Source of the DNA: Pirellulales bacterium
GTDB taxonomy: Bacteria > Planctomycetota > Planctomycetia > Pirellulales > JAEUIK01
Assembly (NCBI GenBank): GCA_019745975.1
Contig: JAIESQ010000099.1
Location: 1-64,000 of the forward strand
Length of the DNA: 64,000 bases
Reading direction: 5' to 3'
A program made the translations under genes and the position numbers. Numbering within the stretch: position 1 is the stretch's first letter; the number at the start of each line of letters is the position of its first letter. Shown here piece after piece: positions 1,860-7,119 of the stretch. Below the pieces are notes generated by a model that saw only the letters and a program-made list of their open reading frames with translations, searched no databases and was not told the DNA's origin.

Positions 1860-2438
1860 ATGGCCGAGAAGCCATCGCGATCGACGACCGAGATGCTCGC
1901 GGCCATTGCCGCCGGCGATGCCCGCGCGGCCGACGAGCTATTGCCCTTGGTCTACGATGAGTTCCACCGCCTGGCCGAAAGCTATCTGCGGCGCGAATCG
2001 CCAGGGCACACGTTGCAGCCGACCGCCTTGGTGAACGAAGCCTATTTGAAACTCGTCGATCAAACGCGCGCCGACTGGCAGGGGCGCACGCACTTCTTTG
2101 CGCTCGGCGCGCAGGCCATGCGGCGCATCCTGGTCGATCACGCCCGGCGCAAGCAGCGCGAGAAGCGCGGGGGCGGAATGCACCGCATTGCGCTCAATGA
2201 AGAGCTGAGCGTGTCGCCGCGCCGCGACGAGGACCTGGTCGAGCTCGACGAAGCGCTCAATAAGCTGGCGAAGATCGACCCCCGCCAGGCGCGGATCGTC
2301 GAGCTACGCTTCTTCGGGGGGCTGACCGTCGCCGAAGTAGCCGAAGCGCTGGGCGTGTCAAAGCGGACTGTCGAAAACGAGTGGACGATGGTCCGGGCCT
2401 GGCTGCGACGCGAGCTGAGCGGAGACACCAACGCGTGA
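1860..2438 (+). CDS. RNA polymerase sigma factor, ECF family
   Basis: MAEKPSRSTTEMLAAIAAGDARAADELLPLVYDEFHRLA...LTVAEVAEALGVSKRTVENEWTMVRAWLRREL; sigma region 2 and region 4 HTH. Confidence 0.9.
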   Translation: MAEKPSRSTTEMLAAIAAGDARAADELLPLVYDEFHRLAESYLRRESPGHTLQPTALVNEAYLKLVDQTRADWQGRTHFFALGAQAMRRILVDHARRKQREKRGGGMHRIALNEELSVSPRRDEDLVELDEALNKLAKIDPRQARIVELRFFGGLTVAEVAEALGVSKRTVENEWTMVRAWLRRELSGDTNA

Positions 2439-4825
2439 ACGCCGGCCGTCACGAGCGCGTCAAGGAGCTGTTTCTCAAGCTGTGCGACGCCGACCCTGCC
2501 ACGCGCCGCGCTACGCTCGACCGCGAGTGCGCCGGCGATCCGTCGCTGCGGGCCGAAGTCGAATCGCTTTTGGCCCATCACTCCTCGCGCACGATTCTCG
2601 AAACCGCGGGTGCGCGAACGACCGTGGCCGCGGCTGCCCCCGAAAAATCAGGTCCGTTAGCTACTCTGCGGCCGCTAGCCCGACACATGCGCGCCGGGGC
2701 ATCGCGGAACAAATGGGTCGTCGCCGCGATGGTCACCGTGGCGGCGTTTCTGCTGCTGGGGGGCGCGCGGCTGCACTACGGTATTCGCGGCGCGCTCGAA
2801 AAGCTGCTGCGCGACGAGTTGCAGACCGTGCTCGACGCCGATATCGCAGCGCTCGAAGTCTGGATGTGCGATCAGGAGATGGACGCCGCCCGCTGGGCCC
2901 GCCGTTCCGAGTTGATCGGGCCGACCAAAGACCTGGTCGCCGTCTGGCGGCAGAACTCGCAGCCCGGGCCCGAGTTGCTGAAATCGCCGGCGCTGGTCGC
3001 CGCGCGCAAGGTGCTCGATCCCTACCTGCAAGAAGAAGGAACCAGCGGCTATTACATCATCAGCCGCTCGGGCATGGTCCTGGCGGCGCACGACGATGCC
3101 GCGGTCGGACGGCGGGTATCTCCCGACGGCATTGCCGCGATCGCGCGGGTGTTCTCGGGCGAGGCGCGGATCAGCCGCCCGTTTCCGCAAGGAACCTATG
3201 ACACTGAGTCCGCGCTGGCCAGCGATACTCCGCAGATCGCCGTCGCCGCGCCGATCCGCGACTCCGATAACGAACCGCTGGCGGTGCTCAGCCTAGGAAT
3301 GCGGGCCGACGAACAGTTCACGCGCATTCTGTCGGTGGCGCGGATGGGGCGCTCGGGGGAGACCTACGCTTTTGACGATCGGGGCGTGCTCCTCTCTGAC
3401 AGCCGCTTCACCGACCAGCTCAAAAAGATCGGGCTAGTTCCCAATCGGCCCGACGCCCGGGCGATCTTTCACGTGCAACTGCGCGATCCGGGTGTCGACT
3501 TGACCGCCGGGGCGAAGCTGCCGTCGTCGCTGGCCGCAAAACAGTTTACGCACCCCGTGTCCATGGCCATCGCTAAGGAAGACGGCGTCAACGTACGTGG
3601 CTACCGCGACTATCGGGGCGTGCTGTGCATCGGTGCTTGGAAGTGGCTGCCCAAATTCGATTTCGGGGTGGTGACCGAAGTCGACTACGACGAAGCTTAC
3701 GCGCCGCTGCAATATCCACTCTTGGCGGTGCGCTGGGCGGCGCTGGTGCTGGCGGCCACGCTCGTGGGTTTGATCATCTCGGCGTGGCGAATCTCCCGGC
3801 TCGCGGGGCAAATCGGCCAAGAGCGGCAACTTGGCCCGTACGTGCTCGAAGCGGAGATCGGTCGCGGCGGCATGGGCATCGTCTACCGCGCCAGGCACGC
3901 CATGCTGCGTCGTCCCACGGCGGTGAAGCTGCTGCCGCCCGCGCAGACCAGCGCGGAGAGTTTGGCGCGGTTCGAGCGCGAAGCACAACTGGCCAGCGGG
4001 CTGACGCACCCCAACACAATCGAGATTTACGACTACGGCTGCGCCGCCGACGGCACATTCTACTACGCCATGGAATATGTCGCCGGCATCACCCTCGCCG
4101 AGCTGCTGGCCGTCTCTGGCGCGGTCGGCGCGCCACGGGCCATCTACCTGCTCAAGCAAATCTGCGGTTCGCTGCGCGAAGCGCACGCCGCCGGACTAGT
4201 GCATCGCGACATCAAACCGCACAACATCATGCTCTGCCAGCGCGGCGGCGAAGCCGACTTCATCAAGGTGCTCGACTTCGGCCTGGTTAAGAATATCGAA
4301 ACGCCGCGGGCCGCCGAGATCACCGCCACGGGCAAGCTGACCGGCACGCCGCTGTATCTCGCGCCCGAGCGCGTCACGCAGCCGCAGGTCGCGGATCCGA
4401 GGAGCGACATCTATGCAGTCGGCGCGGTCGGCTACAACCTGGTCACCGGGCGGCCGATCTTCGCATCGGCCAGCGATTTCGACGTGCTCTACCAGGTAAT
4501 GAACGTGATGCCGACGCCGCCGTCGCAGATTGTGCCCGATCTGCCGCCGGAACTCGAGCGGCTACTCATGCGCTCGCTGGCCAAATCGCCCGACGACCGC
4601 CCGGCCAGCATGAGCCAGGTGCTCGACGAACTGGAGCGAATCGAAGCGCAGTTGCCGCGCTGGACCCAGGCCGACGCGCAAGCGTGGTGGCGCGCGACGG
4701 AAGGGAAGCTGCTAGAAATTGGCCGGCAGACGTTGGGCGCCGGCAACGATGCACGACCCGCCGAGCAGGCAACGCTGCCGCTGCGCAGCCCGTCGGCCAA
4801 AGCGACCGCGTCGAAAACAGGGTAG
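2435..4825 (+). CDS. Membrane Ser/Thr protein kinase with N-terminal Cache-like sensor domain and C-terminal kinase domain
   Basis: GTG start overlaps the sigma stop. N-terminal TM, then GYYIISRSGMVLAAHDD extracytoplasmic region, second TM (LLAVRWAALVLAATLVGLIISAW), then GRGGMGIVYRARH, VHRDIKPHNIM and LDFGLVK kinase motifs. Confidence 0.9.
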   Translation: MNAGRHERVKELFLKLCDADPATRRATLDRECAGDPSLRAEVESLLAHHSSRTILETAGARTTVAAAAPEKSGPLATLRPLARHMRAGASRNKWVVAAMVTVAAFLLLGGARLHYGIRGALEKLLRDELQTVLDADIAALEVWMCDQEMDAARWARRSELIGPTKDLVAVWRQNSQPGPELLKSPALVAARKVLDPYLQEEGTSGYYIISRSGMVLAAHDDAAVGRRVSPDGIAAIARVFSGEARISRPFPQGTYDTESALASDTPQIAVAAPIRDSDNEPLAVLSLGMRADEQFTRILSVARMGRSGETYAFDDRGVLLSDSRFTDQLKKIGLVPNRPDARAIFHVQLRDPGVDLTAGAKLPSSLAAKQFTHPVSMAIAKEDGVNVRGYRDYRGVLCIGAWKWLPKFDFGVVTEVDYDEAYAPLQYPLLAVRWAALVLAATLVGLIISAWRISRLAGQIGQERQLGPYVLEAEIGRGGMGIVYRARHAMLRRPTAVKLLPPAQTSAESLARFEREAQLASGLTHPNTIEIYDYGCAADGTFYYAMEYVAGITLAELLAVSGAVGAPRAIYLLKQICGSLREAHAAGLVHRDIKPHNIMLCQRGGEADFIKVLDFGLVKNIETPRAAEITATGKLTGTPLYLAPERVTQPQVADPRSDIYAVGAVGYNLVTGRPIFASASDFDVLYQVMNVMPTPPSQIVPDLPPELERLLMRSLAKSPDDRPASMSQVLDELERIEAQLPRWTQADAQAWWRATEGKLLEIGRQTLGAGNDARPAEQATLPLRSPSAKATASKTG

Positions 4826-4909
4826 GCTTTATGTCAAAGACCGCTATGCACGCTCATAGACAAGGCGGCGGCTGCCCAGAAAGCGGGAACATGGTGATAG
4901 TGTGCCCCA

Positions 4910-5347
4910 TCATCCTGCGGGTCGCGGTGTATTACCGGGGAATGGCCCAACGACCTCGATAATCTGATCGGCCATGATTGCCATTCGCTTCCCGGTTTCG
5001 AGTTTATCGTTCCTGCGCGACGCGGCGGTCAATTGAGGAGCTTCGGCGTGCCCCTCAAATCCAGGCAGGGGCCTTGCGACAACCTGAATTCCCTGCGCGG
5101 CGAGCGATGCCACAGGAATGCGTGCCACGTAGTAATCGCAGCCGATCCATCCCCGGGCTGCAAGGTTCTCGGAGCTTTCAAGAATCTCACGTGCGAGAGA
5201 GAGTCCGCTAACATCCTGATCCGTTGGCCGAAAGGCCGCCGGGTTCACGCTGTCCGCCGAAGGCAAATACCAGCCGGATTTCAGGGAGATCCGCCTCAAA
5301 ATGATCTCTTCATCCTGAATCGCTTTCTCGGGGAGCGTGTCGGCCAT
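4910..5347 (-). CDS. Uncharacterised protein, third gene of cassette
   Basis: 145 aa ORF MADTLPEKAIQDEEIILRRISLKSGWYLPSADSVNPAAFRP..., same strand as and close to the next ORF. Confidence 0.65.
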   Translation of the reverse strand: MADTLPEKAIQDEEIILRRISLKSGWYLPSADSVNPAAFRPTDQDVSGLSLAREILESSENLAARGWIGCDYYVARIPVASLAAQGIQVVARPLPGFEGHAEAPQLTAASRRNDKLETGKRMAIMADQIIEVVGPFPGNTPRPAG

Positions 5348-5367
5348 CTCAGGCTCACGACTTTTGA

Positions 5368-5790
5368 CTAGTACGCCACTTCGTCCAGTCTGGTGAGCCT
5401 ATGGTTCCGATAGTGCAAAACGTCGAGACCGGTGTCGCGAAACTCGAAACAATCACAATCGCCGAGTGGTCCAAACTCAATTGAAACTCCACCGTCGCCA
5501 GTGGGAACAATTCGAGACGGTGGAATTGCACCGCCGTTGCGAAGCATGGCCGCATGCCAACGCGCACGCGACAATGCGGCGTGGGTCGGCGGAGTTACTC
5601 CATCGTCTGCGATGGCGCTAGGGTCTCGCTCCCACCGGGCGATAGTTGCTTCCAAGAGCGCGTCCCATCGGGCAAGTCGGTCAAGTTCGTCAAACGCGCC
5701 ATAGGGTCGAGCGCTGCCCTTGGCAGCGCGCGCGTCAGCCCTGGTGGTCTGTCGAGCGCTCAAAAAGTCCGGCAATTCAACCATCGCCAT
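5368..5790 (-). CDS. Uncharacterised protein, second gene of cassette
   Basis: 140 aa ORF overlapping the upstream gene by 14 bp (translational coupling); TGDGGVSIEFGPLGDCDCFEFRDTGLDVLHY. Confidence 0.65.
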   Translation of the reverse strand: MAMVELPDFLSARQTTRADARAAKGSARPYGAFDELDRLARWDALLEATIARWERDPSAIADDGVTPPTHAALSRARWHAAMLRNGGAIPPSRIVPTGDGGVSIEFGPLGDCDCFEFRDTGLDVLHYRNHRLTRLDEVAY

Positions 5791-6625
5791 TTTGTCGTTT
5801 CCAGTATTGCTGAGCTGTTGGTGAGGTGATTGCTTCGAACGCCATACAGATTTTCTCTCGGCCCAAAGTTAAGCCTCGCTCAATCACGGCGTCGCAATCC
5901 GCTGGCTCGTCGGGTTCCGGTTTGAGAGGCCCTCGAGCAGTTAGGTTAATTATCAAGAGTTCCAATCGCTCATCGCGTTGCAAGAAGGCGTGCCCAAACT
6001 CGATATGCAGGCGTCCCAGTTCTGGCGCAATGTCATAGTGCCAGCTTGCCTCAAAATCGCTCAATTCGAGTCCGTCAATCGCCATCGGTCCGAACGGTCG
6101 CGCTTGGTTACGAAAGACCGCAGGCCATTCACCCGGCGCTTGCCAAAGGGTATCGCGAGCAATGTGATTGACATAGGTAATCTCCCATTGATTCGGCGCG
6201 ATAGCTACACCGGCCTCGATCAACAGGAACGTGCGAAACTTGTCGTAGTGTGCGAAGAATTCTGTCTTGATTTGCGCGAATCGCGGGTAATCGTCGCCGG
6301 ACTCGTCACGCCAATTGAAATGAAAGCGGCCGTCTTGAACTTGAATCAAACGGTTGCCCTCTGTGTTTAAGAATTGAAGCCGTAAAGGGGGGCGTTTTGA
6401 CAGCGTTACCGACAGTGCAGGACGAACTGTTCGAGCCTTGCCGAACTCCTCAAACTGTTGCTCAATTGGCGACGCTTCGTTGAGTTGCTTCCACTCTGGA
6501 CCAAGTGTCTTCCAGAAAGCCCCGAGCATACCCGCATGGATCGGGCCAGCGCTGGCGAATTGCACGCCTAACACTCGCTCGACAATGGGGGCCTTCGCGA
6601 AGTACGTTACGTCGCCACTTGGCAT
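5777..6625 (-). CDS. TIGR04255-like family protein
   Basis: MPSGDVTYFAKAPIVERVLGVQFAS...WEITYVNHI...; PIVE..LGVQF opening and YVNHI motif as remembered for the TIGR04255 family. Confidence 0.7.
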   Translation of the reverse strand: MPSGDVTYFAKAPIVERVLGVQFASAGPIHAGMLGAFWKTLGPEWKQLNEASPIEQQFEEFGKARTVRPALSVTLSKRPPLRLQFLNTEGNRLIQVQDGRFHFNWRDESGDDYPRFAQIKTEFFAHYDKFRTFLLIEAGVAIAPNQWEITYVNHIARDTLWQAPGEWPAVFRNQARPFGPMAIDGLELSDFEASWHYDIAPELGRLHIEFGHAFLQRDERLELLIINLTARGPLKPEPDEPADCDAVIERGLTLGREKICMAFEAITSPTAQQYWKRQNGDG

Positions 6626-6725
6626 CGTGTCAGAATCCTACAAAGAGACCAGCTTGATGGCGTACCATATCCGGCGCCGCTTACTACCACAAGTTTCTCC
6701 ACTAGGTCAATTGTAGCTGCCACGA

Positions 6726-7119
6726 GCGGCCGATTATTCAGCTCGACATCCTGCCGACAGCCATCGCGGCTGCCGGCGGCACGGTCGACTCGGCCTGGCA
6801 GCTCGATGGTGTGAATCTGCTGCCGTACCTCACTGGCAGAATCAAAGGGGCTCCGCACGAGACGCTCTACTGGCGCTTCGGCGAGCAATGGGCGATTCGC
6901 CACGGCGATTGGAAACTTGTCGTCGGTCGCGATGGTGGGCGCGAGCCGGCACTCTTTAATCTCGCCGCCGACATCGCCGAATCCAAGAACCTGGCGGACA
7001 AGGAGCCTGCGAAGCTCAAGGAATTGCTGACGCTGTATCAAGCCTGGAATGCGCAGCAAGCGCCCCCTTCGGTGCCCGACGCCCCGCCCAATCGGCGGCG
7101 CAATCGCCGCGCCGCGTAG
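6726..7119 (+). pseudogene. Sulfatase, 3' fragment only
   Basis: Frame reads ERPIIQLDILPTAIAAAGGTVDSAWQLDGVNLLPYLTGRIKGAPHETLYWRFGEQWAIRHGDWKLVVGRDGG...LFNLAADIAESKNLADKEP; typical sulfatase C-terminus without any catalytic N-terminal part. Confidence 0.75.

Follow-up and report, generated by a model that had tools for sequence, protein, structure and literature searches.

A sporadic, mobile three-gene module headed by a TIGR04255 protein in Planctomycetota, with a putative function in conflict

Introduction

Do three tightly packed genes on a contig of a Pirellulales bacterium form a functional module in their own right, and if so, what might that module do? The genes (here called A, B, and C) lie in a window of 64,000 nucleotides, the whole stretch of DNA that was analyzed (assembly GCA_019745975.1, contig JAIESQ010000099.1, positions 1 to 64,000). 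A preliminary description made from the sequence had assigned A to a TIGR04255-like family, left B and C uncharacterized, and proposed a horizontally moved module for defense, toxin-antitoxin activity, or conflict. We followed up this proposal by searching for the three genes in other genomes, predicting the folds of A and C, and comparing the module with known systems.

Results

The locus and its surroundings

All three open reading frames were borne out on the minus strand (Table 1), with a 14-bp overlap of A and B and a 20-bp gap between B and C. The operon is more than a chance arrangement, since it recurs in 41 distinct loci (see below). Its GC content is 0.556, versus about 0.65 in the surroundings. 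The adjoining kinase carries a double Cache sensor domain of the extracytoplasmic type.

Table 1. Features of the cassette locus, in window coordinates
Feature	Positions	Strand	Description
Gene A	5777-6625	minus	282 aa, TIGR04255 family; proposed sensor/chaperone-like head
Gene B	5368-5790	minus	140 aa; proposed antitoxin/linker for C
Gene C	4910-5347	minus	145 aa, predicted compact ADP-ribosyltransferase-like fold; proposed effector/toxin
Upstream junction	6626-6720	none	between A start and sulfatase remnant; presumed operon promoter, by position
Sulfatase C-terminal remnant	6721-7119	plus	first ~320 codons absent; homologue alignment
Downstream junction	4826-4909	none	between C stop and kinase gene
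Intact Ser/Thr kinase gene	2381-4825	plus	Cache domain

A broken sulfatase had been reported directly beyond the promoter side of the operon, and the sulfatase part of this claim held: the remnant aligns over 119 aa, at 73% identity, with residues 316-434 of an intact homologue (a 436-aa stretch from a same-family genome), the remaining parts of which had no match anywhere within the window. A scan for a sigma-70 consensus promoter of A-B-C gave no match, leaving the promoter side as one presumed from position. No flanking repeats were found around the cassette, hence no target-site duplication was seen, and no tRNA gene was found there as an insertion site. In a synteny comparison, the flanking arrangement of the window was absent next to the sulfatase in three relatives carrying it; with these sulfatase flanks not shared, the comparison showed no empty site from which to date the insertion.

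A, B, and C are linked across genomes

We scanned 84,980 species genomes, using an alignment of five A sequences, and obtained 33 loci. Iterated profile searches placed A, B, and C in the same order and on the same strand in 31 of these, and in the other two (L080 and L102; L numbers denote individual loci) the module ends at a contig edge. Complete A-B-C modules with conserved order and strand were present at 41 distinct loci, some of them from a search of the phylum, with a median A-B spacing of -1 bp and a B-C spacing of 0 to 72 bp (median, 18 bp). Separate searches with B and with C matched directly downstream of several A genes found in the phylum, and B lies directly upstream of C, in the same direction, in the 41 complete loci and in most further C loci. 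Divergence was correlated between the genes (Mantel r of 0.80 for A-C, 0.72 for A-B, and 0.71 for B-C), and none of 2,000 permutations exceeded 0.39; vertical descent also produces correlated divergence, so the Mantel result alone is no proof of joint transfer. The linkage of A, B, and C is near-obligate. The idea of a module, which the preliminary description had tied to B and C being neighbors of TIGR04255 genes elsewhere, thus survived the check designed to refute it: A-B-C is a real, conserved, and previously undescribed module, the function of which is putative.

The module is sporadic and mobile

Of 294 Planctomycetota genomes, 17 had A, at 20 places in all, in a search with the single protein; profile searches detected A in 27 of the 294 and C in 21. 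Among the 57 closest relatives of the window genome, A and C were absent from all six same-family genomes, and eight same-order genomes matched A, one of them weakly. The 33 loci of the large scan belong mostly to Planctomycetota; Hydrogenedentota (L071), Elusimicrobia (L075), and Opitutales (L087) contribute one each.

Several copies sit in mobile contexts. A-B-C lies beside mobF on a Mycobacterium paragordonae plasmid and, on a viral contig (L104), beside an integrase and a ParB/DNA-methyltransferase protein; at L054, a phage-type clamp loader gene is found just upstream of the cassette. Only 1 of 72,556 plasmid records and none of the phage records matched A, and the majority of copies lie on chromosomes, where no mobility gene was seen in the vicinity. 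Some copies are decayed, as fits dispensable cargo: at L059, A is interrupted by an in-frame stop and C is split, and at L068, A is split. The proposal of horizontal movement is therefore well supported, by sporadic presence, low GC content, occurrence in several phyla, on a plasmid, and on a viral contig, and linkage of the three genes. One same-order genome (G302; L215, L223, and L230-L232) has at least four C homologues, with heads that differ or are missing, a local expansion.

Gene A belongs to TIGR04255

The family assignment of A was upheld. A passes the curated cutoff of NCBIfam TIGR04255 narrowly (30.8 bits against 30; E value of 2.5e-7), and the 48 relatives aligned with it match this family without exception, with a best E value of 1.8e-31. 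TIGR04255 was not mentioned in the open-access literature that we searched. The AlphaFold model of A (pLDDT, 89.5) predicts an alpha+beta protein in which a strand-helix-strands-long helix order occurs twice. This order hinted at an internal duplication, which a profile comparison of the two halves did not support. A had no match in a PDB sequence search and no clear match in a PDB fold search, where the hits were scattered over unrelated folds. We also considered a SecB-like chaperone and rejected it: SecB was absent from the Pfam matches of the 48 A proteins (E value of ≤0.1) and from the PDB fold hits of A among the matches listed. SecB is rare in Planctomycetota genomes.

C is predicted to adopt an ADP-ribosyltransferase-like fold

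Neither B nor C matched any Pfam, NCBIfam, or PADLOC family, and their relatives (42 to 43 each) gave only isolated, weak Pfam matches; we accordingly rejected a housekeeping identity for both, in line with the preliminary description. B has a variable N terminus and a conserved C-terminal part (W.., P..V.P.GdGG..fE). Its PDB sequence hits were designed beta-trefoils and other unconvincing entries, which we judged to be chance matches, and C had no match in the PDB sequence search.

The AlphaFold2 model of C, built from 43 sequences, has a pLDDT of 95.1 and a pTM of 0.87. In a Foldseek search of the PDB, all 17 hits with a probability of ≥0.15 were KptA/Tpt1 proteins or the Rhs toxin TreTu, two kinds of ADP-ribosyltransferase (ART) fold, all with E values above 0.2; the best E value, 0.26, is not significant. 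KptA/Tpt1 gave the best fold matches (probability of up to 0.80; TM score of 0.48 by query length), and weaker rows included AvrPphF ORF2 and DarT. A viral structure library returned weak hits, among them a tRNA 2'-phosphotransferase and an ADP-ribosyltransferase-domain protein. The consistent ART hits contrast with the scattered folds from the search with A, which give the picture of noise. C likely has an ART fold. Kinship at the sequence level was rejected for both KptA and RES: hhalign gave probabilities of 0.3 percent with an alignment of 15 KptA members and 0.1 percent with seven RES sequences; no RES match was found when 43 C proteins were compared with Pfam.

In an alignment of 54 C sequences, which were collected by A- or C-based searches so that the counts favor complete modules, S50 is conserved in 54, H100 in 53, F39 in 51, and R18 in 49; D45 is also conserved. 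With S50 invariant and R18 and H100 nearly so, these residues are suggestive of a catalytic site. In the R-S-E class of ARTs, arginine and serine lie on the first two conserved strands and are followed by glutamate. C likewise has R on its first and S on its second conserved strand, and its triad, R18/S50/H100, ends in histidine and is not an E-ending triad of the H-Y-E or R-S-E type. Because histidine takes the place of the usual ART glutamate, the activity of C is uncertain. We give ADP-ribosyl transfer by C an even chance.

B and C form a core with exchangeable heads

We inspected in detail nine loci where C was found and no strong A (L132-L140), as well as eleven more. C is directly preceded by a B homologue at all nine of the former and at 9 of the 11 latter (L231-L237, L239, and L240; not L230 or L238), a few of these B matches being weak. 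What precedes B varies. L239 and L240 have a normal A, and at L133, L135, L140, L235, and L238 the upstream gene is, by eye, a divergent TIGR04255-like gene. DUF3467-like heads of about 95 aa occur at L134 (Pfam E value of 0.23) and L138 (Pfam E value of 0.0033), where they replace TIGR04255 before B-C (4567-4869, minus strand, and 2980-3264, plus strand, respectively). Another domain is fused to B, with C following, at L132 (4155-5333, minus strand), L137 (1597-3867, plus strand), and L237 (1079-2233, plus strand); the fusion to B is C-terminal in all three, and the partner domain is conserved, e.g., 'RVPRGFVGGVDLCLRTIVDGSAIPVI'. No recognizable head precedes B at L231, L233, L234, and L236. 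Since B stands before C with varied heads or none, B-C is the constant core, and among its several heads TIGR04255 is the most frequent.

TIGR04255 genes also occur apart from B-C. At L142-L144 they stand alone in neighborhoods that resemble one another across three genomes, with genes for a radical-SAM-type protein, a peptidase-like protein, and a dihydroorotate dehydrogenase-like protein; this similarity suggests that a stand-alone subfamily is vertically inherited and has another role there. At L063 and L141, TIGR04255 has a different partner with a 'QGD...PPYREHLSQAFARFFMRVGLP' pattern. Here (L063, 6673-7398; L141, 1626-2183) TIGR04255 is followed by a short ORF and then by a common uncharacterized protein, a second candidate partner, with the pattern 'QGD...TQSCDL...RLRLxPPYREHLSQAFARFFMRVGLP'. 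At L061 and L064, TIGR04255 precedes a protein of 213 to 230 aa with a B-like C terminus, and C was not found.

Defense genes are at most slightly enriched near cassettes

We compared 120 genes near cassettes with 120 genes from control regions in many of the same genomes, using heuristic gene calling. Defense genes near cassettes are at most slightly enriched relative to these matched controls. PADLOC family counts were 283 near cassettes versus 45 in controls, a difference inflated by redundant methyltransferase models. Among the top matches listed, restriction-modification methyltransferases stood out near a few cassettes and not in controls, and PD-T4-6-type kinases did not differ between cassettes and controls. 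A, B, and C themselves had no PADLOC match at an E value of ≤1, in a release that may hold no CmdTAC/PD-T4-9 model. The suggested role in defense, toxin-antitoxin activity, or conflict has indirect support, from the predicted ART-like fold of C, the antitoxin-first order of the B-C core, and the head swaps; the PADLOC counts of the matched neighborhoods differed only weakly.

Discussion

Our preferred reading, to which we assign a probability of about 0.45, is that A-B-C is a mobile toxin-antitoxin-like conflict cassette in which C would act as an ART-fold effector, B as its antitoxin, and A as a sensor or chaperone. Free C, as a small ART-fold enzyme, would probably modify a cell component with NAD+ and so stop growth, and B, encoded just upstream, would hold it inactive. 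A may stabilize or hold B while sensing a trigger, for instance phage or stress; titration of A would then lead to loss of B and release of C. The computations establish the module, how it is conserved and scattered, and the exchange of its heads, and they suggest the ART fold of C; we infer the toxicity of C and its neutralization by B, as well as the sensing role of A and the trigger. A wider and more tentative proposal, taken as a whole, is that B-C is a new two-gene core of the toxin-antitoxin-like kind, whose ART-fold effector has an atypical R-S-H site and which plugs into several unrelated sensors (TIGR04255, DUF3467-like, or a B-fused domain), and that TIGR04255 would then be a sensor or adaptor of general use in bacterial conflict systems, working with other effectors as well.

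The same fold hits could be taken to mean that C is an ART-fold enzyme that, like KptA/Tpt1, processes or repairs RNA, acting on an RNA 2'-phosphate or on ADP-ribose at RNA ends; A and B would then bind its substrate or regulate it, and the cassette would be an accessory for repair and no toxin. KptA/Tpt1 are the best PDB folds for C, the viral hits include a tRNA 2'-phosphotransferase, and KptA-like enzymes are known to modify RNA ends (PMC11833690). We nevertheless find this improbable, because C has 145 aa against about 180 aa for the KptA proteins found here and does not align with the KptA profile, and because a repair function makes sporadic distribution and swapped heads less expected. 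Tpt1 enzymes share a conserved Arg-His-Arg-Arg set, in place of which C conserves R/S/H. One can also doubt the fold: C might be a small non-ART alpha/beta protein, and A-B-C a regulatory or metabolic operon that happens to transfer horizontally, as would be consistent with structural E values that are not significant and with the lack of sequence homology of B and C to any known family. This seems unlikely given that the better PDB hits of C are all ARTs, while those of A were scattered, and that an invariant S50 with near-invariant R18 and H100 suggests a catalytic site.

A further explanation accepts mobility and seeks the function there, in a cassette for phage or plasmid maintenance (addiction or stabilization) or for superinfection exclusion, of which chromosomal copies would be relics. 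The mobF gene on the Mycobacterium plasmid, the integrase and DNA methyltransferase on the viral contig, the phage-type clamp loader gene at L054, and the decayed copies all fit such a cassette. Against it, most copies are chromosomal without visible mobility genes, and A was matched in a single plasmid record and in no phage record, so that we regard this explanation, like the non-ART one, as unlikely.

Among known systems, the toxin-antitoxin-like reading finds its closest parallel in CmdTAC (formerly PD-T4-9) of Escherichia coli, an anti-phage system that unites an ART toxin with its antitoxin and a SecB-like chaperone and is triggered by the capsid protein (PMC11618068). Both consist of three genes, which encode a (predicted) ART-fold protein, a small partner of variable sequence, and a third protein that may be a chaperone or sensor, and both have a scattered distribution. 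The gene order differs, with the TIGR04255 gene first and the ART-like gene last in our module; A has no SecB homology, whereas CmdTAC has a SecB-like chaperone; the CmdT triad is H-Y-[E,D,Q] (PMC11618068), in contrast to R/S/H in C; and CmdA was reported to end in an LAA degron (PMC11618068), which B does not. A-B-C may therefore parallel CmdTAC in how it works, and it is not homologous to CmdTAC by any test applied here.

The tripartite TAC systems (e.g., of Mycobacterium tuberculosis) resemble the module in their two-gene core and in an exchangeable third gene that may control antitoxin stability, a role that we propose for the module; their third gene is SecB, whereas here it is TIGR04255, DUF3467-like, or another domain, and no toxin family is shared. 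With type II toxin-antitoxin systems, the likeness is that B and C are small, adjacent, co-directional genes kept as a pair. KptA/Tpt1, TreTu, DarT, and RES resemble C in the compact ART-like fold predicted for it, with R on the first and S on the second conserved strand; KptA and RES have no detectable sequence homology with C, which is shorter than KptA and has H as its third residue. The NCBIfam entry for TIGR04255 (sporadTIGR04255), to which A and its 48 relatives belong, covers A only; the linkage to B-C and to other partners was found here. A literature search for anti-phage ART systems in Planctomycetota yielded only work on lake-sediment viruses.

TIGR04255, a named family without a function, can now be placed in an operon with two partner families and be given a mechanism open to test. 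Should C prove to be an ART, the module would be a tripartite ART system in Planctomycetota that is unrelated in sequence to CmdTAC and that has an unusual R-S-H site and interchangeable sensors.
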